DNA of 34,052 nt, taken from contig DYGG01000022.1 in the NCBI GenBank assembly GCA_020724775.1, positions 17,731 through 51,782 of the forward strand. The letters run 5' to 3'. The notes beneath the pieces were generated by a model. The model made no database searches and was not told the DNA's origin. It saw only the letters and a list, made by a program, of their open reading frames with translations. The position numbers were made by a program, and so were the translations under genes. The stretch's first letter is position 1, and every line of letters starts with the position of its first letter. Source of the DNA: Ignavibacterium sp. (GTDB lineage: Bacteria; Zixibacteria; MSB-5A5; GN15; PGXB01). Below, piece after piece: positions 11,368 through 34,052 of this stretch.

Positions 11368-11571
11368 AATCACGCAACTCTCACTTCTTATATAATAACG
11401 GATAAATCCTGCCTCCGTCAACCGTTCTGTATCATGCCTCGCTCCAATTTTTTTCTCAGCAACCTCTGCGCACTTTCTGTTGCATCTCGCGGGACGATAA
11501 TTATATGGACAAATTAGTCTTGTTACTTATATTGCCAAAAATAATCCAAAATATGTGTGAGGTTCCCGCTA

Positions 11572-14500: not shown

Positions 14501-15489
14501 CTCTAATCAGTAGAGCGGTTCTTACTGCCGATGCCGTAACCTATGACATCACCACCGCCCAGCCGTTCTCCTCCGACCCCGGTCTGGAATTATGGCCCTC
14601 TTACGGAGGAAACTACAATCAGACGATAAGTCTGTCTGGATCCGGCTATTCGGCTACGGTATCAGACAGCCTGGGAGTATCCGGTTCGTTCACCCTCTGG
14701 GCGACCGATGATTCTTCACAAACGTTCTTTGTCCCCAATAGGTATACTTCAACCGGAGTAAACCACAATCAATCTTTCATCTGGCTCTTTGGAGCCGAGG
14801 GACAGAGTGAATTCAAGTTAGATTCCACCAACGTCTCTTTGACAAAAGCCATCATTCTTTCTTCGTCTTATCCGGTCATACGGACCGGACTGAGTGACAA
14901 CGCGGCGCAGGCCGGACAGACGCATTGCCTGGCGGTCTTTCCGGATGACCCGCTGACCGGCGTAAATCAGGTGGTCATTCGTTACGACGATGACGATTTG
15001 AGACTGGGAGAAAGGTATCTGGGGGATGAATCCGCGCTGGCAGTCTACCGTTGGGTTGATGACATAACCGGATGGCAGTTGGTCGGCGGTACGGTAGATA
15101 CTTCTCAGAATGCTCTCTATGCTCCTGTCGTGCAGACCGGTGTTTATGGCGCCTTTACCGCTCAGATTATTACTGATGTTAAAGATGACGAGTTTGGGGA
15201 TATACTACCCTTCCGCTTCGAACTATCACAAAACTACCCCAATCCATTTAATCCGATAACAACCATAAAGTACAACCTGCCGGAACGCAGTCACGTCACT
15301 ATCGAAGTGTACAATTCGCTCGGTCAGAAAGTAAGGACCCTTGTCAACCGCGAGGAATCAGCCGGGTCATATACGATTACCTGGAACGGGACAAACTCTT
15401 CCGGCAAGTCCGTTTCCACCGGCGTTTACTTGTATCGTTTTCAGGCCGGAAACTATGTCGAGTCAAAGAAAATGTTGCTGCTGAGGTAA
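11572..15489 (+). CDS. Large secreted protein: propeller-like N-terminus, CLCA-type metalloprotease motif, T9SS sorting domain
   Basis: A 1305-aa exported protein. The start is ATG 11572 with GAGG 9 bases upstream; a GTG at 11557 would add five residues. Residues 1-26 form a signal peptide ending in CSATAQ. About residues 30-450 contain repeated 'D..GN.Y/F' strands like a beta-propeller, with an odd Cys cluster (C240, C241, C245, C248, C252). H702-E-F-G-H706...D713-E714-Y fits the HExxHxxxxxxDEY zinc-site pattern of CLCA-type metallohydrolases. The C-terminal ~90 residues, starting near LSQNYPNPFNP and ending VESKKMLLLR, are a type A T9SS sorting/FlgD-like domain. So it is probably exported by Sec, passed through the type IX system, and acts at the cell surface or outside. 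Substrate unknown. Proteolysis is inferred from the motif only. Confidence 0.85.
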   Translation: MHLRFSALLPAVLCGWLFLFCSATAQLMPEWNYNISTLGRYAYIDHPVIIDDSGNAFVLSYAGNSLEGARVTKIKPDSTIAWQVSYPDSGLYLNYFGRSPAGDLYIFGHHEALGGHDASAVGIKINANGTLAWGHLITAQLAPYASYPRGAVDIDGNLWIGFTETPVDSFCIDSLPDGSGNPGQSGVISHAVIYRLDSQSGTPTLVERVTGADRQPVGIWNISADNDGFVNVGVYVAEFCCNNLCQNCRDSCFTDNVFGNVGYRITYYLRRFTTGGSFSGSTWVAASDNSIYSAYVFTGRMGELLIFKHQFMSPQPYWSHVERFGHWATSFSGETNVSGMYAPTTDYSGNVLLWHWLVSTKAALDDNERETMVLDATTGSVKWTKPGIAGYMGADRDGNIYVNDRVAVHKFDQFGAEPWVCTTGVDLGSILHADTAGWFYFQNYTTLARYNSTKYLTIRDAHLDSIPNVAFDLIKVTNNPPYFDEDTLGSFTTDDRGRLSLTPLAPDSFFVRLDLTGDTLVVGDSLKISKHVYSEPAAKHEALLGTMYSVHLDNAQFAENGHLFFDTLTSGNQDLVLNHTELRYNLLVSMEWEATDTYLWSLEDNFRYMSNYLYDVSDGQIRLDTVYIFDNDDFSAEADLLILASNMEWPRAHAGGILRNGIDYLYMPRIWMGDTTRTRNHTDAMYPLDLTNPSHDYRTKVHEFGHYALNFFDEYLFWHPDSSLYSPNNNLRCLPPTVFRYGFMDSHYEDGGGISSEMSGAFRYNLESCRNTNQWRVHNKSCWEHLESWVEAVSWGADNLFVPILKPDASDTLERVVTNPALFFSGPNNDLNNPDYDIGLMIHFPNQISPQEAGYSDKHVTVYHSTGGDNANVQLVNDQYAATARIIEQGRTSDAARAWVVGVKDASYQILATKGNSVATVTPSPLLASSQNVTTGWLYGMADSGGSGVSKVGNRFSANRAEDSLTIELNEVQGNYPLISRAVLTADAVTYDITTAQPFSSDPGLELWPSYGGNYNQTISLSGSGYSATVSDSLGVSGSFTLWATDDSSQTFFVPNRYTSTGVNHNQSFIWLFGAEGQSEFKLDSTNVSLTKAIILSSSYPVIRTGLSDNAAQAGQTHCLAVFPDDPLTGVNQVVIRYDDDDLRLGERYLGDESALAVYRWVDDITGWQLVGGTVDTSQNALYAPVVQTGVYGAFTAQIITDVKDDEFGDILPFRFELSQNYPNPFNPITTIKYNLPERSHVTIEVYNSLGQKVRTLVNREESAGSYTITWNGTNSSGKSVSTGVYLYRFQAGNYVESKKMLLLR

Positions 15490-19080: not shown

Positions 19081-19401
19081 CATTCATAAAAGTTCGGCAT
19101 CCACATAATACTCTTTGCCCCTGCCATCCCACAAACATTCAATCCTTAAGACAGCCATTTTCGGAAGAAAAACCGAGGAATCAGAACTTAGTGGTATGGA
19201 TTGGACGTCAATGAAATGGAAGGGGCTGCCCCCAACCTCATCCCCCAGACTTTGGTGTCCTTAAGCTTTTCGCATAAGACCAGCTACTTCTGTCAAAAAA
19301 GAACTCGTTGAAAGTCAATGAAATCTTGGTTATATGTGGTAGTTTGTCAGTCACGCTTTTCATGAAAAAATATGTTTGAGCGGCGGCCAGGGCCGGCACT
19401 G
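19081..19401. other. Gene-free stretch between katG and CPBP protease
   Basis: About 320 bases with no frame, tRNA or repeat I can support. It separates two convergent transcripts. Confidence 0.5.
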
Positions 19402-20115
19402 TCACGAGATGAGCAGTTTCGTACAGTACCCACCTATGTTCCCAAATGCGTGCACTAGCATTGCCGGAATCAGACTCCCTGTCTGCTCTTTGTGGTAGCC
19501 GGCGATCAGACCCAGCACTGCAGCAAATACGACAATACTCATCACGGGAAGTAACCCCATCCCGGTAGTAAGCAAGGCAGCATGCATCAGTCCAAAGAAG
19601 AGAGCGCCGGTTAGAACCGGAAGACTGATTCTTATGCCGAATACAGCAAAGCCATATTCAGTCAAGGGTGCGAGAAAACTCTGTATCAACCCCCTGGTAA
19701 GTAATTCCTCGCTAACACTAGCGTAGACCCAAGCGAAGATTACAGTCTGGACGAAAGAATACTCCGGCTGGGAAGCTCTGGAGCCTTCTGGAAACAAGTG
19801 TAAGACTGCCGTTAGCGCCACTCCAACAGCCGCACCTGGGATTAGAATCCACGCCATTTTGTAATTCCTCCCCAAGCAAAAACCGAATGAGCGCACCTTA
19901 CCTCGGGAAAGAAACATTATCAGGATCAATGATACCGCCCACATAGTCGTGTGACTGACGAAGCCTACAGACCAGGGCTGAGATTGTAACGGCGTTGGCA
20001 AGCGGCTCGAAATAGAAACTACTATACCCACCGCGTTCAGTACGAAAATCCCCATCAGAATCGCGAAGAGGACTCTTCCTGTCACCTTAAGGGAACGAGA
20101 TTTTAGTGAATTCAT
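19402..20115 (-). CDS. CPBP-family intramembrane metalloprotease (CaaX protease/Abi type)
   Basis: A 237-aa polytopic membrane protein of the CPBP (Rce1/Abi) family. The catalytic motifs are all visible: EELLTR (E136, E137, R141), FFGLMH with H178, and HAFGN (H222, N226). About six to eight hydrophobic segments are present. Family members cleave peptides within the membrane, including CaaX-type tails, bacteriocin precursors and anti-sigma factors; the bacterial substrate is rarely known. GGAG sits 8 bases before the ATG. It lies 14 bp downstream of a kinase remnant on the same strand and may share that transcript. No bacteriocin genes are nearby. Confidence 0.85.
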   Translation of the reverse strand: MNSLKSRSLKVTGRVLFAILMGIFVLNAVGIVVSISSRLPTPLQSQPWSVGFVSHTTMWAVSLILIMFLSRGKVRSFGFCLGRNYKMAWILIPGAAVGVALTAVLHLFPEGSRASQPEYSFVQTVIFAWVYASVSEELLTRGLIQSFLAPLTEYGFAVFGIRISLPVLTGALFFGLMHAALLTTGMGLLPVMSIVVFAAVLGLIAGYHKEQTGSLIPAMLVHAFGNIGGYCTKLLIS

Positions 20116-20129
20116 AGGTCATTCTCCAA

Positions 20130-20429
20130 TCAGAAATCCACACAACACCATATTTGTCTCAATAAGCATCGCACAAATCCGGCCCTGCCACCCCCTTGTG
20201 CCTCACACCTGCATCTTGCTCGGTGTTCTTCGTCCTGGCACAAGTACGAGGAAAGGAACTTGAGCGCAATTTTGCAATTAAGTTCGGTGTCCTCAGTCAG
20301 ATAGACCTCACCCATCCCACCGGCGCCGGTCTTATCGATGATTCGGTAGCGGGAAACCATCGTGTCACTGGTCAACGATATATTGGTTCTTATTTTGTCG
20401 TCGTCAGATCTGCGCATAGACCTTTCCAC
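20130..20429 (-). pseudogene. Truncated Ser/Thr kinase remnant
   Basis: A 99-codon frame whose first ~70 residues resemble the start of the kinase just upstream: RYRIIDKTGAGGMGEVYL, then EDTELNCKIALKFL with the ATP-binding Lys, then HRARCRCEAQ. After that the similarity ends and the frame closes with an unrelated tail; no catalytic loop, DFG or APE segment exists. It starts directly after the stop of the full kinase gene (20433). This is best read as the remnant of a tandem duplication of that kinase. It cannot be an active kinase. A short regulatory decoy cannot be excluded. Confidence 0.75.
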
Positions 20430-20432
20430 AAG

Positions 20433-22694
20433 TCATGATTCCAGGCCGACCTTTCTTAGTAACTCCTCAAACCGTGGGTCTGAGCGAAGGCAATCCAGAA
20501 ACGGAATACCTCTGAGTCCAGTCAGCCATGGTTCGCGCTCCTTAACGGCACTATCCATATGTTCGAAAGCTCGGTCGCGTTGCCCCAAACCTGCATGCAC
20601 CAGTGCAACATAAAAAGGCGAGACATACTTCTGTCCGGACAGCTCATTTAGTTGGTTAAGCGTGGCGAAGGCTTCATCCTGCCTTCCGGCCAAGCCATAG
20701 ACCAAGCCCAGGTGCCCCACGCCGATTGGCGCGTTCAAGGTCATCCTATTGTAAGTGGTCAGAGCTCCAATAGCTTCATCCCACGCCCGAGTTGCGGCAT
20801 AGGTGAAGCCGAGAAAGAGGTAAGTAGGTGCAAAGTCGGACTCCAATTCCAGTGTTCTCTTCAATTGGGCCTCGGACCTTTCATAATCGTGAAACCGATA
20901 GAGGGACAATCCGAACACCGCGTTGGTCATAAGAAGTACCGGATCGATCTCAAGGCTCCGTGTAATCTCCCGATAGCACTCTTGTTCCCGTCCTTGTCCC
21001 TGCAGGAGAATTGCATACCACCTGTGCCCGTGTGCGGAATTGGGGCTTAACTCCAGTGCATGAACTAGATTCGCCTCCGCCGCCGAATAGTCCCAATCAT
21101 AGAACATCTTGATCCACCCGTTACATACGTATGCTTCTGCCAGAGTGTCGTCAATCTGAATTCCTTTAGCGAGAGCCTCCTTCCCTTTCTCGAATGCGTC
21201 CCGCGGTCGCATGAGGCTCCAGACGGCCATCTGGCCGTAACTGTCCGCCACGCCGACGTGGGCAGGGGTGTAAAGAGGATCTTTCTCGATTGCCTCTTCA
21301 AAACAGGCGATCGCCTGCTGCATGCCCCCCTCGTGTCGCCGGTTCCAAAAATACCGCCCCTTGAGATAAAGACCATAGGCCACAGGGTCATCAGTGTACC
21401 GCTTTATGAGCCTGGCCTTGCCGCCAATCCCAAGCTGGACTTTCAAGTGTTCAACCACTGCAAGAGAGATCTCATCCTGGATGGCGAAAACATCCTCCAA
21501 CTCGCGGTCAAACTTCTCCGACCAAATGTGGTATCCGCTCGCGACATCGATAAGCTGGGTTGTGATACGCAATCGGTTCCCCGATCGACGAACGCTTCCT
21601 TCCAGAACGGTCTTAACACCGAGTCTCCTGCCAATCTCACGGACGTCCAGCGCTTGTCCCTTGAAAGAAAAGGCCGTCGTTCTGGCTACGACTTGCAGTT
21701 CCTCAGTGTGGGAAAGCGCGTTAATGATCTCCTCTGCCATACCGTCACAGAAATACTCCTGCTCAGGCTCGGGGCTTAGGTTGGCAAACGGAAGCACAAC
21801 AATGGAAGACTTCTTTGTTCTGACCCTGAAGGTCGGCAGCTGGTTCAGTCCTTTCAGATCCACCAATACGTCGTTAATCTGCTGATACCGAAGATTCTTG
21901 TCCTTGGTGAGTGCTTTGATGACGACCATTTCTAACGCGTCCGGCACAGCAGAATTGAATCTCGATAAAGACTCTGGCTCAGAATAGACAATGGCATGTG
22001 TTGTTGCCACGTCATTGTCTCCCTTGAACGGCAACCTGCCCGTGATCATCTCGTACAACACAATCCCCAGCGAAAAAATGTCCGACCGCGCGTCAAGCTC
22101 CTCCCCCCGCACCTGCTCCGGTGACATATAGTTGACCGTCCCCAAAGTGGAACCGGTCTGTGTAATCTTCTCCGTCCCCTTGACCGCCGCCAATCCGAAA
22201 TCCAGTATACGCGCCCGACCATCGTCATCTACGACGATATTGGCCGGCTTGATGTCCCGATGCACGATCCCAGCCTGATGCGCCTTCGCCAACCCCGCGC
22301 ATACCTGCGCCGCCAAATCCAGCGCCGTCCTCAGAGGCAGGTCGCCTGAGTCAACCATCGTCTTGAGCGTTTTCCCCTGAAGATGTTCCATCACAAAATA
22401 GGGACGGCCGCGGTATTCGTTTACCTCGTGGATGGTTACGATATTGGGGTGGCTCAGCATCGCCGCCGCCTGCGCTTCCCGCTTGAACCGGGCACGGCAG
22501 TCGGCATCCGGACAGAGATGAGAAGGCAGGAATTTGAGGGCGACTTTCCGATTGAGTTCAGTATCCTCAGCCAGATACACCTCACCCATCCCACCGGCAC
22601 CAATGCGCTCGAGGACCCGATAATGCCCGATCTGAATGTCCTTCTGAATCTGTACGTTGGATCGGGTTCTGTCGTCTGATTCGCTTCGCGGCAT
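20433..22694 (-). CDS. Soluble Hanks-type Ser/Thr kinase with TolB-like domain and TPR repeats
   Basis: A 753-aa protein. The kinase domain (about residues 25-285) has the glycine loop GAGGMGEV, Lys54, HRDIKPAN (from 145), DFG (165-167) and SPEQ (from 191), so it should be active. A TolB-like/adenylate-cyclase-associated domain follows at about 297-430 (IVVLPFANLS...EEIINALSH...LEGSVRRSG...IWSEKFDRELEDVFAIQDEI). TPR-like repeats fill 450-740. Unlike PknB-type receptors, no membrane helix separates the domains, so it is probably cytoplasmic. I prefer ATG 22694 with GGGAG 10-11 bases upstream over TTG 22703, which touches that site. The domain order is common in Gemmatimonadota and related environmental phyla. 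Targets unknown. Confidence 0.9.
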   Translation of the reverse strand: MPRSESDDRTRSNVQIQKDIQIGHYRVLERIGAGGMGEVYLAEDTELNRKVALKFLPSHLCPDADCRARFKREAQAAAMLSHPNIVTIHEVNEYRGRPYFVMEHLQGKTLKTMVDSGDLPLRTALDLAAQVCAGLAKAHQAGIVHRDIKPANIVVDDDGRARILDFGLAAVKGTEKITQTGSTLGTVNYMSPEQVRGEELDARSDIFSLGIVLYEMITGRLPFKGDNDVATTHAIVYSEPESLSRFNSAVPDALEMVVIKALTKDKNLRYQQINDVLVDLKGLNQLPTFRVRTKKSSIVVLPFANLSPEPEQEYFCDGMAEEIINALSHTEELQVVARTTAFSFKGQALDVREIGRRLGVKTVLEGSVRRSGNRLRITTQLIDVASGYHIWSEKFDRELEDVFAIQDEISLAVVEHLKVQLGIGGKARLIKRYTDDPVAYGLYLKGRYFWNRRHEGGMQQAIACFEEAIEKDPLYTPAHVGVADSYGQMAVWSLMRPRDAFEKGKEALAKGIQIDDTLAEAYVCNGWIKMFYDWDYSAAEANLVHALELSPNSAHGHRWYAILLQGQGREQECYREITRSLEIDPVLLMTNAVFGLSLYRFHDYERSEAQLKRTLELESDFAPTYLFLGFTYAATRAWDEAIGALTTYNRMTLNAPIGVGHLGLVYGLAGRQDEAFATLNQLNELSGQKYVSPFYVALVHAGLGQRDRAFEHMDSAVKEREPWLTGLRGIPFLDCLRSDPRFEELLRKVGLES

Positions 22695-23056
22695 GACCGA
22701 CAATCTCCCGGTTTACGGCGGATTGACCCCGCCTTGCGTCACACGCTCAAAGCAATTTACGAATTATTAACAAGAATGGCAACGTGTTTAGAAACCGGAG
22801 ATTTAAGATCGTCAGGCTATCCAAGAGAGAACTGGTTAGATTGGAAGAAATACTAGAGAACGGAATTTAGAGGACGCTAAATGATTATGGACTACGCTTG
22901 TCTATGGCGGCCCCGATATCACTCTCCCCAAACTCTTGTGGGTTTCCAGTTCCCGATCCGATTACACTTTGCAAGAATCTGTGGAACTCGCTGGAAAATA
23001 ATCTCGTAGCCTGCGGAGGCATGACTGATGCGGAAACAAACCGTCGATTCTCTCGT
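22695..23056. other. Gene-free stretch upstream of the kinase
   Basis: About 360 bases between the kinase start and the end of the small membrane protein gene. It contains the probable kinase promoter. Frames on both strands reach into it but show no recognisable protein. Confidence 0.45.
22754..22782 (-). promoter_or_regulatory. Probable kinase promoter
   Basis: On the minus strand TTGCCA (22782-22777) and TAAATT (22759-22754) are 17 bases apart, a fair sigma70 match about 60 bases before the kinase start codon. Confidence 0.4.
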
Positions 23057-23401
23057 CTAGGACCTCTTCGCTTTACGACGTTGAAACCACACAAATCCGA
23101 CACCCAGCACCCAGAGTGGTCCGGTAACCGAAGCCACCGACAGAACGTGTTTGTCGAAAATGCCGGCCGGCGTCGGCAACAGCCCGAACCGGAACTCGTC
23201 TCGAGTGACCGTCTGGGTAGTCGTACCACCCTCGTAGAATCCAGCTGCCACTAAAGGATCGTTCGAGTCAGCTTGGGACTTGACCTGTTCAACAACCTCG
23301 TACTTGGTATACCAATCCCCACCGGTTGCCTGCCAGGTTACGACTGATGCGATCGTAAGAAAAACCACCGCGGCCAATACCATCTTGCTTTGCTTGTTCA
23401 T
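23057..23401 (-). CDS. Small membrane protein of unknown function
   Basis: A 114-aa protein with an N-terminal membrane segment or uncleaved signal (about residues 8-24), a polar extracytoplasmic stretch of about 60 residues containing GGTTTQTVTRDEFRFGLLPTP, and a C-terminal membrane helix (about 88-108) followed by a positive tail RRKAKRS. The GAGGTGA Shine-Dalgarno lies just before the ATG, inside an 8-bp gap after the FGE-like gene, so the two are translationally coupled. I do not recognise the family. Its position suggests it works with the formylglycine-generating-enzyme homologue in the envelope. It appears to be the last gene of the sigma-controlled operon. Confidence 0.75.
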   Translation of the reverse strand: MNKQSKMVLAAVVFLTIASVVTWQATGGDWYTKYEVVEQVKSQADSNDPLVAAGFYEGGTTTQTVTRDEFRFGLLPTPAGIFDKHVLSVASVTGPLWVLGVGFVWFQRRKAKRS

Positions 23402-23409
23402 AGCTCACC

Positions 23410-24516
23410 TCAATTCTTCTGCTTGGGTACGTCCATCGCACACCGGAAGCCTACATTATTGAATGCGTGGTCGGGCGGGCTGGCGCCGCGGTAGTGGGTC
23501 GAATAGGCACCGCAGTAGTTCGGACTGCAAAACCAGCTACCACCTCGCGCCACTCGATTCTGACCTGTTACCGGACCTTGCGGATTGGCTATAGGCGAGG
23601 CGGCGTAGTACGATGAGTCATACCAATCAGCTGTCCATTCCCAAACGTTGCCGAGCATGTCATAAACGCCCCAGACATTGGGGGCAAAGGACTCGACAGG
23701 GGCCGTATAATAGAAGCCATCGGTCAGCGCGTTATGCTCAGGCCAATGCCCTTCCCAGATGTTCGCTTGGACTTGGATGTCATCAGAGTGAGATTGAGAC
23801 GCTGCGTGATGCAATCCGCTGTGGTGGCTTTTGCCTGACGGAGAGTGACCGGTCGCAGCAACATTCTGGGCATGTGCCATGTGATCGAAGTGATCACTAT
23901 TCATGTTGCCTGCGTCTGCGACAAACTGTCCGGCAGAACCTGCACGCGCCGCGTATTCCCACTCGGCCTCAGTCGACAGACGCTTTCCGGCCCACTTGGC
24001 ATAAGCCGCGGCATCTTCCCACGAGACACAGACAACCGGATGATCCATCTTATCCGAAATCGATGATGTCGGTCCCTGGGGGTGACGCCAGTTTGTACCT
24101 TCGGCGTACTGCCAGTCCGTTTCACCGCTGAAATACGCCCAGCAGTGACTGTCGCGTTCAGCCCGAGTGACATAATCAGTCGCCTTCACAAACTCCGCAA
24201 ACTGAGCATTGGTGACTTCGTGAGCGTCGAGATAGAATGGACTGACCTGAACCGTATGTCGTGGGGATTCATCAGCGTAAGCGCCTTCGTTGCCCATCAC
24301 GAACTCACCACCTTTAATCAAGACCATGTCCTTTGTATTGGCCCGCGTAGGGGACGCCCCTACTGAAACTTCGGCTGGCGCAATGCCCGAAGCAATGCCG
24401 AAGAGCACTACTGCCGCAGCTACCAGAAACACTGACGTGAACAACTTTGTCAGGGCAGGGAGAGGGGGCTTGCTCACCCTCTCCCAAATTTCCTGCGATG
24501 TGTTTATCTTTATCAT
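23410..24516 (-). CDS. Exported formylglycine-generating enzyme (SUMF1/FGE) homologue with His-rich insertion
   Basis: FGE oxidises a Cys in CxPxR sulfatase motifs to formylglycine using O2 and copper. This 368-aa protein has an N-terminal hydrophobic segment (about 25-45) that should direct it to the periplasm. The FGE-sulfatase domain runs from MVLIKGGEFVMG to NNVGFRC. It keeps both active-site cysteines: C330 and C335 in GGSWFCSPNYC, spaced as in true FGE; most FGE-like proteins lack them. Residues about 205-245, where family members have a short YPWG segment, hold a His-rich insertion with nine His (209, 212, 215, 224, 231, 232, 236, 237, 243). ATG 24516 has AAAGGAC upstream; a longer frame to 24561 lacks support. 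No sulfatase is seen in the window, so the target is unknown. Confidence 0.88.
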   Translation of the reverse strand: MIKINTSQEIWERVSKPPLPALTKLFTSVFLVAAAVVLFGIASGIAPAEVSVGASPTRANTKDMVLIKGGEFVMGNEGAYADESPRHTVQVSPFYLDAHEVTNAQFAEFVKATDYVTRAERDSHCWAYFSGETDWQYAEGTNWRHPQGPTSSISDKMDHPVVCVSWEDAAAYAKWAGKRLSTEAEWEYAARAGSAGQFVADAGNMNSDHFDHMAHAQNVAATGHSPSGKSHHSGLHHAASQSHSDDIQVQANIWEGHWPEHNALTDGFYYTAPVESFAPNVWGVYDMLGNVWEWTADWYDSSYYAASPIANPQGPVTGQNRVARGGSWFCSPNYCGAYSTHYRGASPPDHAFNNVGFRCAMDVPKQKN

Positions 24517-24561
24517 AATTCTTGTCCTTTCGGTTCCAGTATTGAAGGCTCTCAGCTTCAA

Positions 24562-25431
24562 TTACATCTTCCCGCCACAGGGGTTACAAGGATTCTGAGG
24601 CTTCTTTTCACCACACGGGTTGGATGCCTTCTGGCCGCAGGGATTGCCGACTGCCTTGGTCATCTGCGCCTTTTCACCACACGGGTTCATCGCTGCTTTG
24701 CCACCGCAGGGATTTCCGGCCATGGCACCACCGGATGCGGAGGCGACCACGCTGAGGTCGATTTCGACCTTTTCACCGACTTTGCTGCCGATCAAATTCA
24801 TTCCCTTAGGTCCGGTAATGCCGAAATCAGCCAGGGCAACGTCAAAGGTCGTACGAGCCGCCAGCAGATCGCCCGGCATTTTCTGCTCAGTCATCTTATT
24901 TTCCTTAAGATATGTGATGCGTGCCGGCACACTGATCTGTTTGGTCTTGCCATTGAGCGTGAAGTCACCAACTGCCGTTACATCGAATGTCTTGGCGTCC
25001 TTCGTGTTCTTCACTTCCCTGACATTCTTTACCTCTGTGATTTTGAACTCAATATTCGGGTTCTTCGCGGCATTCAGCCAGTCGGAGCTCGCGAGGTGTT
25101 CGTCGCGAAGTGGAATACCAGTGTTCAGACTCTTAATCGGAACGACAAGTTCACCGCGGCCGCCGGCGTTAGGATTGCTCGGGTCAAACACGAGCTGTCC
25201 AGTGATCTGGTTGGAGGTTCCAACGATGTCCTCCAGCGGAGCGGTGCTCTTGAAGGTCACCGTGTTGCGGCCCATCGGGTCTTCCACCGAAAAGACCCGA
25301 CCGTTGTGATCGCCCATCGACTTCATATTTTTCCCTCCGCAGGGATTGCAGGGGTTGCTCTGTGCGAATGAGACAGAGCTGATGGCCAACGTCAGGGTCA
25401 GGCCAAGGATGATATTCTTGAGTGTTTTCAT
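24562..25431 (-). CDS. YceI-family periplasmic protein with NPCG(x)K repeats
   Basis: A 289-aa exported protein: signal peptide (1-23, ending SFAQ), a short NPCNPCGGK block, a YceI lipocalin-like domain (about 45-232; GQLVFDPSNP, IPLRDEHLASSDWLNAAKNP, GDFTLNGKTKQISVPA), and a C-terminal tail of five NPCG-type units at about 240-288. The same NPCNPCGGK unit occurs at both ends. YceI domains bind isoprenoid or fatty lipids in a barrel. The Cys-rich units look like metal- or redox-binding repeats, but I know of no proven function. AAGGAG precedes the ATG. It lies between the 41-aa peptide and FGE genes, downstream of a sigma-specific promoter, so it is probably an envelope stress protein. Confidence 0.88.
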   Translation of the reverse strand: MKTLKNIILGLTLTLAISSVSFAQSNPCNPCGGKNMKSMGDHNGRVFSVEDPMGRNTVTFKSTAPLEDIVGTSNQITGQLVFDPSNPNAGGRGELVVPIKSLNTGIPLRDEHLASSDWLNAAKNPNIEFKITEVKNVREVKNTKDAKTFDVTAVGDFTLNGKTKQISVPARITYLKENKMTEQKMPGDLLAARTTFDVALADFGITGPKGMNLIGSKVGEKVEIDLSVVASASGGAMAGNPCGGKAAMNPCGEKAQMTKAVGNPCGQKASNPCGEKKPQNPCNPCGGKM

Positions 25432-25479
25432 GATTTGTTCTCCTTATTGTTCTTCATTGTGAATTTCAGTTTTTTGCCT

Positions 25480-25605
25480 TTAAGCCAGCCAGTAAACCAG
25501 GCCGACTACCATCGCCATGACCATCATTCCGGCCATGATCTTCTCGTGGATGCACATCCCTTTGTGGTCCGTGCAGTTCGAGCCGACTTTGCACATCTTT
25601 GACAT
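25480..25605 (-). CDS. 41-residue Cys/Met-rich small membrane peptide
   Basis: A short gene with ATG at 25605, the Shine-Dalgarno AAAGGAA upstream and TAA at 25480. The product starts MSKMCKVGSNC and continues with TDHKGMCIHEK, giving Cys at 5, 11 and 18 and two His, then a Met-rich hydrophobic helix (about 24-41) ending VVGLVYWLA. The N-terminal Cys/His part could bind a metal such as copper or zinc while the helix anchors it in the inner membrane; this is inferred from composition. It is the first gene after the duplicated sigma-type promoter at 25679-25708, about 70 bases downstream. I do not recognise a named family. Coding is supported by the ribosome site, operon position and coherent sequence. 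Confidence 0.7.
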   Translation of the reverse strand: MSKMCKVGSNCTDHKGMCIHEKIMAGMMVMAMVVGLVYWLA

Positions 25606-25678
25606 GTTCTGTTCCTTTCATCTAAATTCGTTTTCCGCTGCTTCTCTGAAAGCAGTTGCAGTTTCTTCTTTCTGATGG

Positions 25679-25708
25679 TTAGTCGCAGGAACAGGAGAAG
25701 CGTTACAA
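25679..25708 (-). promoter_or_regulatory. ECF-sigma-type promoter, copy 1
   Basis: On the minus strand TTGTAACGCTT (25708-25698) is followed 10 bases later by TGCGACTAA (25687-25679). Both blocks and the spacing are identical to a copy before the second AhpD gene. The GTAAC/CGACTA pair looks like an ECF -35/-10. Transcription would start about 65 bases before the 41-aa gene. Confidence 0.72.
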
Positions 25709-25784
25709 AGGTGGGCACAATTAGCCCACGAAAAGGCATGACGAATTGATGTTTAAGGGGTTGGGACTTGGGCGGAAAAAAAGA

Positions 25785-26072
25785 CTACGACTTATCGTCG
25801 TTTGGCTCAAGCAGCTTGCTCAGCCGGTCACGGGCGTCACTGCTGAGTTTAGCTTCTTTGGATTGTGAGGCTGACTGTTTGCGAGCGAGATTTCGAACCA
25901 ACTGAAGCTGGTCGGAGTTACGGCGGCACCAGACACACATCAAAAGATGAAGGCGCATTCCCAGACGTTTACGCCACGGAAGTGTTTCATCCATTGCCTG
26001 CGAAGTCAGGTGCGATACTTCCTGACAGGTTGGAAGTACCTTGTTCATCATTCTCATCATGATCTTCATCAT
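25785..26072 (-). CDS. Zinc-finger anti-sigma factor (HxxxCxxC type)
   Basis: A 95-aa (or shorter) cytoplasmic anti-sigma factor without a membrane helix. It has the ZAS/zf-HC2 pattern: C16 in TCQEVSHLTSQAMDE, then H42, C46 and C49 in HLLMCVWCR, the H-x3-C-x2-C motif of RsrA-type redox-sensing anti-sigma factors. In RsrA, thiol oxidation ejects zinc and frees the sigma factor; the same is inferred here. It lies 23 bp after the ECF sigma gene on the same strand. Several ATGs occur at the start (26072, 26069 and later), so the exact N-terminus is unsure; the first 11 residues are Met-rich. Confidence 0.82.
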   Translation of the reverse strand: MMKIMMRMMNKVLPTCQEVSHLTSQAMDETLPWRKRLGMRLHLLMCVWCRRNSDQLQLVRNLARKQSASQSKEAKLSSDARDRLSKLLEPNDDKS

Positions 26073-26095
26073 AGTCTATGCCACCGTCGAGGCTC

Positions 26096-26707
26096 TTACG
26101 CTCCGATCCAGTTTGTTTCCAAACAGTGCCGCATCAGTTTGCGCGCCCGATGCAGCATTACTCGTAAGTTAGTCGGAGTCACTGACAAAACGTTACAGAC
26201 TTCATCGTACTCAATCTCCTGAATGTCCCGCATGTTATAGACTTTGGCCAATCTCTGGTCTAGACCCTCAAGACATCGCCTGAGATGTTCCCAGAATTGC
26301 TTTTGTTCTACCGGGTCATTTGGATCAACAGACCAGGCTTTGGGCTTTCGGTTTGGCTGCCATGTGCCGGCATCGGGTCCGGCGGTGATGTAATCGGTAT
26401 CGTCGGTGTCTGAGATTTGTCCTGGCTCGTTCAAGGGAGTTTCCCGGCTAGATTTACGAAAATGATCCATCACTTTGTTTTTGAGAATGCCGATAAGCCA
26501 GGTCCGCTCCGTTGAGGCTCCTGAAAACGACGAGCGCGCCTTGAGAGCCCCTAACATACATTCCTGAACCAGGTCCTCGGCTGCGGTACGGTCACTGACA
26601 TATCGGAGAGCAAATCCAAAAAGTGCATCGCCATGTTTGGCGACCCATTCTTTTGGTTCGGAGAGTACGGAACTGCTACTTATATGTTCGGTTTCCGATT
26701 CGCTCAT
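26096..26707 (-). CDS. ECF RNA polymerase sigma factor
   Basis: A 203-aa sigma-70-family factor with region 2 at about 22-90 (DRTAAEDLVQECMLGAL, TWLIGILKNKVMDHFRK) and region 4 at about 135-195 (DEVCNVLSVTPTNLRVMLHRARKLMR). A long linker containing AGTWQPNRKPKAWSVDP joins them; this insert resembles the TIGR02943 group, whose members often pair with a zinc anti-sigma factor. The anti-sigma gene follows 23 bp downstream and an AhpD-like gene ends 12 bp upstream. It probably recognises the duplicated promoter at 25679-25708 and 28064-28093. Control by thiol or peroxide stress is inferred from the RsrA-like partner and AhpD-type neighbours. Confidence 0.9.
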   Translation of the reverse strand: MSESETEHISSSSVLSEPKEWVAKHGDALFGFALRYVSDRTAAEDLVQECMLGALKARSSFSGASTERTWLIGILKNKVMDHFRKSSRETPLNEPGQISDTDDTDYITAGPDAGTWQPNRKPKAWSVDPNDPVEQKQFWEHLRRCLEGLDQRLAKVYNMRDIQEIEYDEVCNVLSVTPTNLRVMLHRARKLMRHCLETNWIGA

Positions 26708-26719
26708 GTCTTTCCACTA

Positions 26720-27253
26720 TCATTCCAGCTCAACACCCAGGCCATCGGCAATGCGATTGACATATGCAAAGTAAGCCGTCACCTGAACGATATCATGAAG
26801 CATTCTGGCATCAAAACCCAAATGCTTCAGAGGCGCGATAGTCTCTGCTGTGATCTCTCCCGGTCGCAATGTCAATTCTTCGACAAATTCAAGTATCTGC
26901 CGATCCTCCGGTTCAATGTCGGCTGATCGATAATCAACCACCAGTTGATCTTTTAGTTCATCCGCAACACCACCCAGGGACCGCAACGCGGCCCAATGAT
27001 GCTCAATTCAGTAATGACACTTGTTGAGAGCAGAAACGACAACCGCGATCATTTCCTGGCGGTGCCGAGACAAAGGTGACTTGGGGGAGACGATAGCCCT
27101 GTACAGATTTACATGCTGCTCCATTACCGGCGGATTGATGCCGGATATACGAATGATGTTAGCGGGGCATCTGTCACATCCGCCATACATTTTGTACAGC
27201 CGTTGTAACTCAGGCGAACCATCTTCGAATTCTATATATCCGATATAAGACAA
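26720..27253 (-). CDS. AhpD-like peroxidase-related protein, candidate selenoprotein (in-frame TGA at CxxU)
   Basis: One reading frame of 177 codons interrupted by a single TGA at 27010-27008. Read through, it is a peroxidase-related AhpD/carboxymuconolactone decarboxylase family protein that ends in the family-typical FAYVNRIADGLGVELE. The TGA is codon 82, the second position of the CxxC active site: C79-H-Y-U82, followed by H86 at the same spacing as the paralogue's C86xxC89xxxH93. AhpD-like CxxU selenoproteins are a known class. A SECIS-like hairpin starts 13 bases after the TGA. An extra CDRC pair (C26, C29) lies near the N-terminus. The start is TTG 27253 with AAGGAG upstream. The frame stays intact for 95 codons after the TGA and heads the sigma operon, which argues against simple decay. 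A nonsense mutation or sequencing error remains possible. Confidence 0.75.
26977..27010 (-). promoter_or_regulatory. Putative bacterial SECIS element
   Basis: After the TGA (27010-27008) come 13 bases, then GGGCCGC (26994-26988), a GTT loop (26987-26985) and GCGGTCCC (26984-26977). The arms pair over 7 bp with one bulged T. The loop G is base 21 after the TGA, inside the range known for bacterial SECIS elements, and the loop begins GU as expected for SelB binding. Confidence 0.55.
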
Positions 27254-27280
27254 CCTTGGCTCCTTATGAATTAAGTTGTT

Positions 27281-27309
27281 AATATGTAAATATTTAACGC
27301 ACTCGTCAA
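27281..27309 (-). promoter_or_regulatory. Probable sigma70 promoter of the AhpD-sigma-anti-sigma operon
   Basis: Minus strand TTGACG (27309-27304) and CATATT (27286-27281) are 17 bases apart, about 30 bases before the TTG start. This operon lacks the GTAACG/CGACTAA element, so basal transcription by the housekeeping factor is likely. Confidence 0.5.
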
Positions 27310-27337
27310 TTCAATACTAAAAGTAGGGTGAGTTCAG

Positions 27338-27371
27338 ACAAAACAAACAGCCAACCCCGTTAAGGGTTGGC
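27338..27371 (-). terminator. Intrinsic terminator of the second AhpD gene
   Basis: On the minus strand GCCAACCC and GGGTTGGC (27371-27364 and 27357-27350) form a perfect 8-bp stem with a 6-base loop, followed by TGTTTGTTTTGT. It lies just after the stop of the gene at 27398 and insulates the downstream operon. Confidence 0.85.
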
Positions 27372-27397
27372 CGTATTATCCAGATGTCTCTTTTTTT

Positions 27398-27973
27398 TTA
27401 CGCTGACCACGAATGCGCCTGAAATGCCTCGTCCAAAGGTGTGTTGGCAATGTGATTCGCGTAGTTCGAGATCGTTTTCAAGGAGACGGCTGTAATCACC
27501 GCAAGAATTGTAGCGCCGGTATATCCCGCCGCCAGAAACTCTGAGACCTGTTCATCCTTGAGGTGTCCACGCTGCTGCACCACTGTCGCTATGAAAGAGC
27601 ACAGCGATTCAAGTTTGTCATCTACAATTGGCTGACGGTTACGCAGCGCCTGCACAACCGACTCCGGAAGTTTCATCATGCCGGCAATGGCCGAATGAGC
27701 AGCTACGCAGTATTCGCAGCCGTTCTCGATACTGACCGTGAGCAGAACTACCTGCTGTTCCAGCGCATTGAGACCGGACTTCTCAAGCGCTTTACTTAGA
27801 TACAGGTATGCATCGAGTGTCACCGGATTGGTCGAGAGCATGCCGTACAGATTCGGTACAAAGCCGAGCATTTTCTGCGCGGACTGCAAAGCCTGCCTGG
27901 CCGCTTCCGGAGCAGTCTCAATTGTGTTAACCGGCAAGGCGTTACTTGTTTTGGTTTGAGTCGTGGTCGTCAT
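27398..27973 (-). CDS. AhpD-like carboxymuconolactone decarboxylase-family protein (Cys form)
   Basis: A 191-aa alkylhydroperoxidase-D-like protein. The active site is C86-E-Y-C89 followed by H93 (NGCEYCVAAHSAIAG), which in AhpD uses two cysteines and a His relay to reduce peroxides with an external electron donor. The N-terminal ~20 residues are polar and Thr-rich. ATG 27973 has the Shine-Dalgarno AAAGGAC. An ECF-type promoter (28064-28093) lies about 90 bases upstream and a clear intrinsic terminator follows, so it is a single-gene unit in the sigma regulon. It is a distant paralogue of the TGA-containing AhpD-like gene downstream. The electron donor and substrate are unknown. Confidence 0.88.
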   Translation of the reverse strand: MTTTTQTKTSNALPVNTIETAPEAARQALQSAQKMLGFVPNLYGMLSTNPVTLDAYLYLSKALEKSGLNALEQQVVLLTVSIENGCEYCVAAHSAIAGMMKLPESVVQALRNRQPIVDDKLESLCSFIATVVQQRGHLKDEQVSEFLAAGYTGATILAVITAVSLKTISNYANHIANTPLDEAFQAHSWSA

Positions 27974-28063
27974 TGTTTTGTCCTTTCTATTCGGTTTTTT
28001 TGTGTTTGCAATTTTTTTGAGCTGGAGTTGGCATTCACCACCGATTTCCAGCCTGATTAACCA

Positions 28064-28093
28064 TTAGTCGCACCGAACAGAAAAGCGTTACAA
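28064..28093 (-). promoter_or_regulatory. ECF-sigma-type promoter, copy 2
   Basis: Minus strand TTGTAACGCTT (28093-28083), a 10-base gap, then TGCGACTAA (28072-28064). All 20 block positions match the copy at 25679-25708. It drives the Cys-type AhpD gene with a leader of about 85 bases. Confidence 0.72.
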
Positions 28094-28203
28094 TACTTTC
28101 AATCCCTTGCGTAAACCGCCAATTGAGGTTAATGCCGGAATTCGGCGACCAACGAGACTTATTGGGACACAACAGCATCGAAATGCCGACAAAGCGATTT
28201 TTG

Positions 28204-28232
28204 TTGACTTTTGTAAACTGTCTGCGTATAAT
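28204..28232 (+). promoter_or_regulatory. Sigma70 promoter of the fluoride operon
   Basis: TTGACT (28204-28209) and a perfect TATAAT (28227-28232) are 17 bases apart, placing the transcription start near 28239, immediately before the riboswitch aptamer. Confidence 0.85.
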
Positions 28233-28244
28233 TTTGTAAACCTT

Positions 28245-28319
28245 GGGGATGGAGTCCCCCAGACCAACCGCCCGGGCCAGGCTGATGACTCCTACCGCGC
28301 AGGCCGTGCGGCGGTAGGA
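28245..28319 (+). promoter_or_regulatory. Fluoride riboswitch (crcB motif)
   Basis: The aptamer shows the conserved crcB-motif parts in order: GGGGATGG, CCCC, AACCGCC and GGCTGATGACTCCTACC (28280-28296). GGGG (28245-28248) pairs with CCCC (28257-28260), GCC with GGC (28270-28272, 28280-28282), and the pseudoknot GGAGTC (28251-28256) with GACTCC (28287-28292). TCCTACCGC (28290-28298) is also a perfect complement of GCGGTAGGA (28311-28319), so the unbound state can break the pseudoknot. The freed GCGGT can instead pair with ACCGC of the terminator (28340-28344). This gives an ON switch with fluoride. Confidence 0.93.
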
Positions 28320-28338
28320 TCGTTACGGCACGAAAAGC

Positions 28339-28362
28339 AACCGCTGCAAAGCGGTTTTTTTT
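28339..28362 (+). terminator. Riboswitch intrinsic terminator
   Basis: AACCGCT (28339-28345), loop GCAA, AGCGGTT (28350-28356), with eight consecutive T from 28355. It lies between the aptamer and the first gene and is the expression platform of the fluoride riboswitch. Confidence 0.92.
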
Positions 28363-28412
28363 GCATCTGCGTCGTGGCCCGGATGGTGCTTTCACGAAAG
28401 GAGGACTCTATC

Positions 28413-29614
28413 ATGGAACACATCTTTACCATTGCAGCCCTGTGGCTAGGCCTGGCTGTCATCTCCGCTGTTATCGCTTATCACCTTCGGGTTTCCATCG
28501 CCCTTGTCGAAATCTGCGTAGGTGTGTTCACGGCTGCCGTGGCAGGCCATTTCGGCGCGTTTGACACGCTGGGCTCTGATTCCGAGTGGTTGCGCTTTCT
28601 TGCTTCTTCAGGGGCAATCCTGCTCACTTTTCTTGCCGGTGCTGAACTCGAACCGGAGGTTCTTCAGAAGAAATTGAAGGAAGTGACCGCGGTTGGCCTG
28701 GTCGGCTTCCTCGCGCCGTTCCTTGGCTGTGCGGCGATTGCCCGATATGTCCTGGGCTGGAGCACACAGGCCAGCCTTCTCTGCGGCGTGGCACTCTCTA
28801 CTACTTCAATGGCGGTGGTCTACGCCGTTATGCTGGAAACCGGCCTCAACAAGACGGATTTCGGCAAGGGCATTTTGGGTGCCTGCTTCATCAATGACCT
28901 TGGCACAGTAATCGCGCTCGGTCTGCTGTTCGCGCCGTTCACGCTCAAGACATTTGTGTTTGTCGGCGTCACCGCCTTCATATTGGCGATACTACCTTTA
29001 GTGAGCAGGTGGCTGACACGCATCTACGCCAATCGGACCGCGGCGATTAGAACGAAGTGGGTGATGCTTGTCCTTTTTGGTCTTGGCGCGTTGGCGCTCT
29101 GGTCTGGAAGTGAGGCGGTCCTTCCTGCCTATCTTATCGGCATGGTATTGGCGGAATTCTCAAACGGCGATGCGCAGTGGATTCGCCGTCTGCGGACCCT
29201 GACCGTCGGATTCCTCACGCCGTTCTACTTTCTTCGGGCCGGGACGTTCGTCTCTTTGCCCGCTCTGATATCTGCCCCACTTGTCTTCCTATTGCTTTTG
29301 GGTGGGAAGGTCGTTTCAAAGATCTTCGGTCTCTATCCGGTTGTCGGGCAGTTTCGGCACAAGCGGGACGAACGATGGTATTACACGCTGATGATGTCCA
29401 CCGGATTGACTTTCGGGACAATAGCGGCGCTATACGGTCTATCCCACAAAATCGTGACTCAGAGTCAATACTCGTTTCTTGTCGCAGTTGTTATTGCCAG
29501 CGCGGTTGTTCCGACGGTTATTGCCGGGATGGCTTTCTTGCCAAAACATCTTCTGCCAAAGCCTGTCCCAAGTGAAGTTAGAGCCCCGAGAGAGAGCGGT
29601 CCGGGAGCGGAGGG

Positions 29615-29618
<4 letters not shown>
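28413..29618 (+). CDS. CPA2-family cation:proton (or fluoride) antiporter
   Basis: A 401-aa polytopic membrane protein of the Kef/NapA-type CPA2 family with about 11-13 hydrophobic segments. Conserved core features include SSGAILLTFLAGAELEP, the helix break ALSTTSMAVVYAVMLETG, and NDLGTVIALGL with the Asn-Asp pair typical of ion-binding sites. ATG 28413 is preceded by AAAGGAGG; an open frame runs back to 28107 but crosses the promoter, riboswitch and terminator, so it is not coding. Antiporters occur among genes controlled by fluoride riboswitches; here it is the first gene of the operon and the likely fluoride or proton-coupled exporter, in place of CrcB or CLC-F. No TrkA-N domain is present. 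The ion specificity is inference. Confidence 0.88.
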
Positions 29619-33130
<3,512 letters not shown>

Positions 33131-33144
33131 TTCATGAGGACCAC

Positions 33145-33216
33145 ATGAAGATCAAACTCTCGCTGAATCCACCGGCAGTGCGGGATCCGAATGGCAGATG
33201 GTCATGGGAATTGTGA
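33145..33216 (+). CDS. Possible 23-residue micro-protein
   Basis: ATG 33145 has GAGGA (33136-33140) 4 bases upstream and the frame closes with TGA 6 bases before the next start. The product begins MKIKLSLNPP and ends RWSWEL. It fills the gap between two operon genes and its stop overlaps the Shine-Dalgarno of the next one, so translation could be coupled. I recognise no family; it may simply be chance. Confidence 0.35.
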   Translation: MKIKLSLNPPAVRDPNGRWSWEL

Positions 33217-33222
33217 GGTACC

Positions 33223-33441
33223 TTGCAGGCCGAGCGCACTATAATCGTCTTCATAGCCGCTGTGGCCGGGTGTTTTGCAGGGGCCATGGCCTATCTAATT
33301 TCATATGAAGAATACTTGCACCACTTTCCTGATAAGAGGAAGCCGAGGCGGTTGGCTCTGCAGGCTGGCGTTTTTGCTTTCCTGTTCTTTCTCGGTATCG
33401 GACTCGTCCTGGCGTTTGTACTGCCCGGAGCATTGCCTTAG
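33223..33441 (+). CDS. Small two-helix membrane protein
   Basis: A 72-aa protein starting at TTG 33223 with GAGG 5-6 bases upstream. It has two hydrophobic segments (about residues 7-25 and 49-69) joined by a polar, charged loop EEYLHHFPDKRKPRR with two His. I do not recognise a named family. It is co-directional with the fluoride-riboswitch operon, 92 bases after the HAD gene and 12 before the zinc-ribbon gene, so it is probably co-transcribed. It may be an accessory subunit of a membrane transporter in the operon; that is a guess from size and position only. Confidence 0.6.
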   Translation: MQAERTIIVFIAAVAGCFAGAMAYLISYEEYLHHFPDKRKPRRLALQAGVFAFLFFLGIGLVLAFVLPGALP

Positions 33442-33453
33442 AGCCATCGAGGG

Positions 33454-33876
33454 ATGCCAGAGATGATCTATTTTTGTCCTTCATGCTGGACCGAACTCGA
33501 TCGGGATTACGAGCATTGCCCATCTTGTGGCTGCGACATAGAGAAGCTGTCCCGAAGCCAGGACTACATCGACAAGCTGATCGCGGCGTTGAATCATCCG
33601 GAGCCGGAGACGCCCATCAGGGCAGTCTGGATTCTCGGCCGCCTGTGCGACAAGAGAGCGATTCGGCCGCTCTATGACATAGCGTGTAAAACCAGCGACA
33701 CGTTTTTGCGAGTGGCTGCGATAAAGGCACTAGTCGAGATCGGGACGGCTGAAGCGAATGAATTGGCAACAAAGTGTTTGGAACACGTGTCCGAAGTGGA
33801 GCGCCTGATGGTGACGAACAGATCGGACCAACCTGATAGTCTCGGGAAAAAGGAGCAGGCCAATGGAGGCCAATAA
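33454..33876 (+). CDS. Zinc-ribbon plus HEAT-repeat protein
   Basis: A 140-aa soluble protein. The N-terminal zinc ribbon is FCPSCWTEL...HCPSCGCDI with C8, C11, C22 and C25. It is followed by HEAT/PBS-lyase-like helical repeats (about 38-115; IRAVWILGRLCDKRAIRPLYDIA, then LRVAAIKALVEIGTAEA). The last 25 residues are polar. The start is ATG 33454; ATG 33463 with GAGGG upstream is equally possible. Such small proteins are usually adaptor or scaffold proteins. It overlaps the start of the MFS gene by 14 bp, so the two are translationally coupled. Confidence 0.78.
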   Translation: MPEMIYFCPSCWTELDRDYEHCPSCGCDIEKLSRSQDYIDKLIAALNHPEPETPIRAVWILGRLCDKRAIRPLYDIACKTSDTFLRVAAIKALVEIGTAEANELATKCLEHVSEVERLMVTNRSDQPDSLGKKEQANGGQ

Positions 33877-34052
33877 GCGGTCAGCATTACGATTCATTGT
33901 TCTGCTGGGATTGGTTAGCCTCTTTGCTGACGTCACATATGAGGCGGCTCGGAGCATAAGCGGGCCATACCTTGCCACACTTGGGGCCAGCGCCGCCGTT
34001 GTCGGTATAAGTCAAAGCCGGATGGGAATGATGACTTACGGGAGTTGCTCAA
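33863..34052 (+). CDS. MFS transporter, 3' partial
   Basis: The first 63 codons of a major facilitator protein: a short polar N-terminus, then a first membrane helix ALRFIVLLGLVSLFADVTYE and the motif ARSISGPYLATLGASAAVVG that marks a group of bacterial MFS proteins. After VVGI the frame continues as SQSRMGMMTYG, which does not look like the expected second helix, so a frameshift or assembly problem near 34005-34052 is possible. The gene is cut by the window end. It is probably the next member of the fluoride-responsive operon, overlapping the zinc-ribbon gene by 14 bp. Confidence 0.72.
   Translation, partial: MEANKRSALRFIVLLGLVSLFADVTYEAARSISGPYLATLGASAAVVGISQSRMGMMTYGSCS

Follow-up and report, generated by a model that had tools for sequence, protein, structure and literature searches.

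A predicted AhpD-like selenoprotein with a covarying SECIS hairpin, encoded beside a sigma/anti-sigma factor pair in a Zixibacteria-type bacterium

The locus described here raises the question whether an in-frame TGA within an AhpD-like gene is decoded as selenocysteine (Sec) or marks a gene that is dead or misread. The stretch of DNA analysed, referred to as the window (34,052 nucleotides), originates from a draft assembly of 3.07 Mb with 96% completeness and 0.7% contamination. The gene occupies positions 26720–27253, as given in a preliminary description made from the sequence alone, and lies on the minus strand, which that description had left unstated. It reads from a TTG start codon (27253–27251), with an AAGGAG ribosome-binding site (27265–27260, read directly) 6 nt 5′ of it, to a terminal TGA (26722–26720) and comprises 177 codons for amino acids, one of them an internal TGA (27010–27008, residue 82). 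This single TGA is found, as had been claimed, at the position of the second active-site cysteine of a CxxC motif (CHYU-IEHH). Translation with table 11 splits the gene into pieces of 81 aa (27253–27008) and 88 aa (26986–26720), just as had been expected of standard gene callers. TGA ends 14 of the 28 listed genes of the window, so that the standard code applies and a reassignment of TGA throughout the genome was ruled out. A scan for readthrough frames with at least 45 codons on each side of the stop, from which overlaps with listed genes were filtered out, gave this frame as the sole one in the window yielding a recognisable protein.

A search of the phylum revealed approximately 27 homologues with 39–80% identity, each containing exactly one stop codon, a TGA, together with Cys forms free of stops; in the alignment the TGA is located at one and the same codon. 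In a collection of named genomes, the 80 top-ranking loci carried TGA (50 loci) or TGC/TGT (30 loci) at the Sec codon and no other stop. As three of these 50 duplicate sequences of the phylum search, they contribute about 47 further distinct Sec forms. Sec forms were distributed over Planctomycetota, Gemmatimonadota, Acidobacteriota, Chloroflexota, Bacillota, Fidelibacterota, Poribacteria, Calditrichota and other phyla. The alignment with Cys homologues, proposed earlier as a check, placed Sec82 in a column occupied by Cys in the loci L040, L042 and L043 and in about 30 other Cys forms. In a quick tree of 104 rows with modest branch support and an arbitrary root, the Sec/Cys state switched 3 times, compared with 27 times in shuffles.

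These data bear directly on the possibility of a pseudogene or sequencing error, in which a Cys codon would have turned into TGA in a gene that is no longer functional or was sequenced wrongly. Such an event would explain why an in-frame TGA breaks an otherwise Cys-type family, but the same codon is TGA in the homologues of the phylum and in the further Sec forms alike, with no additional frame damage, and the hairpin described below covaries. At the level of the family this explanation is already refuted, and we consider it extremely improbable. The preliminary description had named TGA codons at random positions or extra frame damage in close relatives as arguments against Sec; neither was observed, the TGA of the homologues being confined to the CxxU position. 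Its statement that frame and family features are intact on both sides of the TGA was confirmed. Several more distant AhpD-type genes also contained a single internal TGA (G110 C139, G131 C5, G057 C207, G066 C569, G044 C4 and others) and probably represent further selenoprotein subfamilies.

Downstream of the UGA, a putative bSECIS hairpin, GGGCCGC-GUU-GCGGUCC (26994–26978, minus strand), is formed by a 7-bp stem (26994–26988 paired with 26984–26978) and the loop GUU (26987–26985). The stem begins 13 nt past the UGA, and the distance from UGA to loop is 20 nt. For loop, stem, G position and spacing, a review (PMC13188914) gives bSECIS elements a loop of 3–9 nt, a stem of 4–16 bp, a G within the first two loop positions and 16–37 nt between UGA and loop; the hairpin lies within these limits, in agreement with the earlier claim of a GU-loop hairpin at the right distance. 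In 21 close relatives, 99.3% of the stem cells were paired, compared with 87.7% after shuffling, and pairing fell to 42–57% when one arm was slid by 1–3 columns. Fourteen cells showed changes on both sides of the stem. At the protein level, residue 88 (A, T, N, S or D) varies jointly with residues 91/92 (RS, HS, RA or QS) while the stem stays paired, as seen in the peptide variants WAALRS, WNALHS, WNALRS, WSALRA, WDALHS and WAALQS. These joint changes across codons indicate that the RNA stem constrains the protein, and the aligned set makes it easy to see how a signal acting as RNA within a gene shapes the encoded sequence. Moreover, the central codons GCG-TTG were unchanged in all 21 relatives, although Ala has four codons and Leu six.

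The folding energy of the whole stretch separated Sec from Cys forms weakly (MFE −12.0 versus −9.8), and a hairpin-centred test against synonymous recodings was therefore required. Applied to 106 genes, this test gave mean stability z-scores of −1.7 (phylum) and −1.2 (elsewhere) for Sec forms, compared with +0.8 (phylum) and −0.1 (elsewhere) for Cys forms; the difference (p = 6e-8) is indicative, because related sequences are not independent. The hairpin of the window gene itself was moderately unusual among its synonymous recodings (p = 0.02), and about 20 of the 74 Sec forms were individually weak in this test. Within the phylum, none of the three Cys homologues showed a Sec-type hairpin. 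Judged from pairing and covariation, the hairpin downstream of the TGA is under selection as RNA. The stem of the close group (21 relatives) follows the pattern GGxxxGC-GUU-GCxxxCY. In many other phyla, a stem of the ACGGAG...CUCCGU type was seen by eye to start about one codon nearer to the UGA, which implies that the register of the hairpin differs among subgroups.

The components required for Sec incorporation, for which a search of the same genome had been suggested, are all present in the assembly. We identified a tRNA-Sec with a UCA anticodon (73.2 bits), SelA (484.9 bits), SelB (PF09107 wing match, 54.2 bits) and SelD (393 bits), with the SelB and SelA genes less than 2 kb apart on one contig. 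A second tRNA-Sec-like match (L002) scored 47.3 bits, just above the cut-off. In the SelD gene (L075, 8732–10021), the active-site motif likewise includes a TGA (CAGUASK), so that this gene is a second selenoprotein gene of the assembly. Because the TGA is conserved at the catalytic Cys codon, the Sec machinery is complete and the SECIS hairpin covaries, we regard the gene at 27253–26720 as a functional selenoprotein gene with a probability of roughly 0.95 on these sequence-based grounds. SelB carrying Sec-tRNA-Sec would bind the hairpin, and the UGA would then be decoded as Sec82.

With regard to function, the encoded protein (hereafter Sec-AhpD) scored 116 bits against the peroxidase-related family TIGR01926, above the curated cut-off of 81.8, and 45.8 bits against PF02627 (cut-off 23). 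A phage protein was ruled out, as no PHROGs match was obtained, and membership in NF041238 (AhpD_rel_CFYUT) was ruled out by a score of 56.5 bits against a cut-off of 175. The AF2 model (pLDDT 92.6) matched the structures 2prr, 6k40, 2oyo, 2pfx and 3c1l with Z values of about 21 over 172–176 residues; these closest structures are peroxidase-related AhpD-type proteins with 25–29% identity. In an alignment of 27 sequences, Glu67 (27055–27053), Cys79 as the first residue of CHYU (27019–27017), Tyr81 and His86 (26998–26996) were invariant, and position 82 was either U or C. Glu67 is located 12 residues before Cys79 and His86 four residues after Sec; by spacing, they are equivalent to Glu118 and His137 of Mycobacterium tuberculosis AhpD, whose proton relay consists of Glu118, Cys130, His132, Cys133 and His137 (PMC3141380). 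The spacing of Glu67/Cys79/Tyr81/Sec82/His86 equals that of this relay, and the distance of the His noted earlier corresponds to that between Cys133 and His137. The arrangement Glu-(12)-Cys-x-x-Cys/Sec-(4)-His is shared by M. tuberculosis AhpD (1knc, 1gu9) and Pseudomonas aeruginosa PA0269 (2o4d, 2ijc), as is the helical AhpD fold (Z 11.2 for AhpD, 17.5–17.7 for PA0269). The window protein differs from both in that Sec replaces the second Cys, with about 9–20% identity in structural alignment.

From these similarities we infer a redox role. In this 177-aa, all-helical protein, Cys79 and Sec82 together with Glu67 and His86 would form a thiol/selenol redox couple in which Sec82 is presumably the more reactive partner, and the protein may reduce hydroperoxides itself or serve peroxiredoxins as an electron adaptor. 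It could instead reduce a different substrate, as a dehalogenase does, for example: its fold is shared by the debrominase Bmp8 (6ohi/6ohj, Z 16.6, 16% identity). As the closest structures are of the peroxidase-related AhpD type and the Glu/Cys/Tyr/Sec/His relay fits AhpD-type proteins, we consider a different substrate unlikely and favour a peroxidase or adaptor function.

A selenoprotein of this kind was to be expected. An AhpD-like selenoprotein (COG2128/TIGR01926) with a CxxU motif was predicted from Sargasso Sea data in 2005 (PMC1088965), an "AhpD-like 1" selenoprotein followed from the GOS data in 2008 (PMC2398784), and an AhpD-like CxxU selenoprotein appears in a table of the review cited above (PMC13188914). 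The earlier remark that such proteins exist is therefore correct in the sense of a family predicted since 2005. The window gene resembles these TIGR01926/COG2128 selenoproteins in family, CxxU motif and a bSECIS-type hairpin after the UGA; it differs in its origin from a Zixibacteria-type phylum and, by eye, in the stem of its close group, which lies about one codon farther from the UGA. With the NF041238 (seleno)proteins it shares an AhpD domain with CxxU, yet it belongs to a different subfamily. On the sequence evidence, the gene adds a well-supported member to the already known AhpD-like CxxU family. What is new is the SECIS-driven covariation of amino acids, along with a sigma/anti-sigma pair as neighbour and a probable gene transfer. 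Standard gene callers would present the gene as two fragments or a pseudogene; read correctly, it encodes a selenoenzyme of redox type, and uncultured bacteria have enzymes of this kind in wide distribution.

An ECF sigma factor gene (26707–26096, minus strand, like the anti-sigma, YceI and CMD genes below) begins 12 nt downstream of the Sec-AhpD stop codon and encodes 203 aa, in which sigma regions 2 and 4 were the only domains found. It is followed by a gene for a small zinc-type anti-sigma factor (26072–25785) with the motif HLLMCVWC, i.e. HxxxCxxC, and an NF052368 score above the cut-off, then by genes for a YceI-domain protein (25431–24562) and an FGE-domain protein. A 12-bp hairpin resembling an intrinsic terminator (27374–27347; consensus match only) lies between Sec-AhpD and the upstream CMD gene and suggests a transcription unit separate from the latter. 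This CMD gene (27973–27398) encodes a second CMD/AhpD-type protein of the Cys type (CEYC) with a TIGR01926 score of 63.5 bits (cut-off 81.8). Sec-AhpD apparently heads an operon with the ECF sigma and zinc-type anti-sigma factors; more tentatively, this pair may be co-transcribed with Sec-AhpD and control it during redox stress.

In genome G120 the sigma and anti-sigma genes adjoin Sec-AhpD in the same order (71% and 66% identity), and in G128 they do so divergently. The pair was not found beside Sec-AhpD in the other relatives inspected, giving three genomes in total; on this count, a linkage common to the whole family was ruled out, and the association with the sigma factor appears suggestive, not general. 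A strong Sec-AhpD gene was present in 8 of the 18 genomes with this type of ECF sigma factor, and elsewhere in the phylum the pair stands without AhpD, twice together with YceI (L189, L191). In these two loci the order sigma, zinc anti-sigma, YceI recurs, with NPCG repeats in the YceI protein. In the sigma/anti-sigma copies L184–L188, the next gene encodes a glycine-rich predicted membrane protein. Ten upstream regions contained no convincing common bipartite motif as a shared ECF promoter of the Sec-AhpD and sigma genes. A neighbourhood of this kind has a precedent in the literature, namely pairs of ECF41 sigma factors and carboxymuconolactone decarboxylases (CMD), with an ECF sigma gene likewise adjoining a CxxC CMD/AhpD-type gene (PMC3426412). 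ECF41 factors carry a C-terminal regulatory domain as a fusion and lack an anti-sigma gene (PMC3426412), whereas in the window the sigma factor is short, its gene precedes that of a zinc-type anti-sigma factor, and the CMD protein has Sec. The 203-aa length, the presence of regions 2 and 4 alone and the adjacent anti-sigma gene place it outside the ECF41-CMD pairs.

One can speculate that, through the UGA, stress signalling depends on the supply of selenium. Sec-AhpD might determine whether the zinc anti-sigma factor is oxidised or reduced, or a UGA left unread at low selenium might, by polarity, lower the expression of the sigma factor gene that follows. Such coupling is very unlikely; if true, either form would imply a transferable selenium-dependent regulatory module. 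Through the sigma/anti-sigma neighbour, a connection of selenium enzymes with redox signalling becomes accessible to testing.

The gene lies in a stretch (19400–34052) that is compositionally foreign, reaches the contig end and contains patchily distributed genes. Its tetranucleotide correlation with three stretches from elsewhere in the assembly was 0.69–0.74, compared with 0.93–0.95 for 1–19.1 kb; GC content was nearly equal on both sides of the boundary at about 19 kb. The same-genus genome G077 matches the window gene by gene from 0.1 to 19.0 kb (75–94% protein identity) and ceases to do so after KatG. A close Sec-AhpD was not found by the phylum search in G077 or other genomes of the same family, nor were close matches to the sigma, GTPase and antiporter genes found in G077 at the thresholds used. 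The nearest relative of Sec-AhpD (80% identity) is in G120, a member of another family, to which the sigma factor is 71% identical. The foreign block holds a second, divergent enolase copy, and enolase was therefore dropped as a yardstick of vertical divergence in favour of SelA, which is 40% identical to the local copy in G120 and 89% in G077. In the tree of 104 rows, the window gene and that of G120 are sisters (support 100) within a clade of 19 rows otherwise from family f2. Among the patchy genes, the antiporter is 84% identical to that of G123 and 74% to that of G095, and the GTPase occurs in 4 of 132 genomes. Within the window, neither tRNA genes nor repeats were found that would convincingly mark a border of the block.

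Horizontal acquisition of the Sec-AhpD gene within the phylum is likely. A contig join artefact, by which a real selenoprotein gene would not share its source organism with the remainder of the assembly, would fit the shift in tetranucleotide correlation and the lack of matches in G077. However, the high identity of the patchy genes to various families of the phylum (Sec-AhpD and sigma to G120, the antiporter to G123 and G095) also fits a genomic island, the order sigma, anti-sigma, YceI recurs in G087 of the same family, and GC content hardly changes across the boundary. An artefact therefore appears improbable, and the selenoprotein reading would stand in either case. Transfer points to a mobility of Sec genes among distantly related members of a single phylum, in which most hosts already decode Sec (selA above the cut-off in 116 of 132 genomes).

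Two further features of the window were observed. A short ORF at 20130–20429 (minus strand) resembles the N-terminus of the adjacent Ser/Thr kinase gene (20433–22703) and is seemingly a truncated duplicate. The region 11557–15489 encodes a very long protein of the secreted type with a C-terminal T9SS-like sorting signal recognised by eye, and this stretch also deviates from the trinucleotide usage of the genome.
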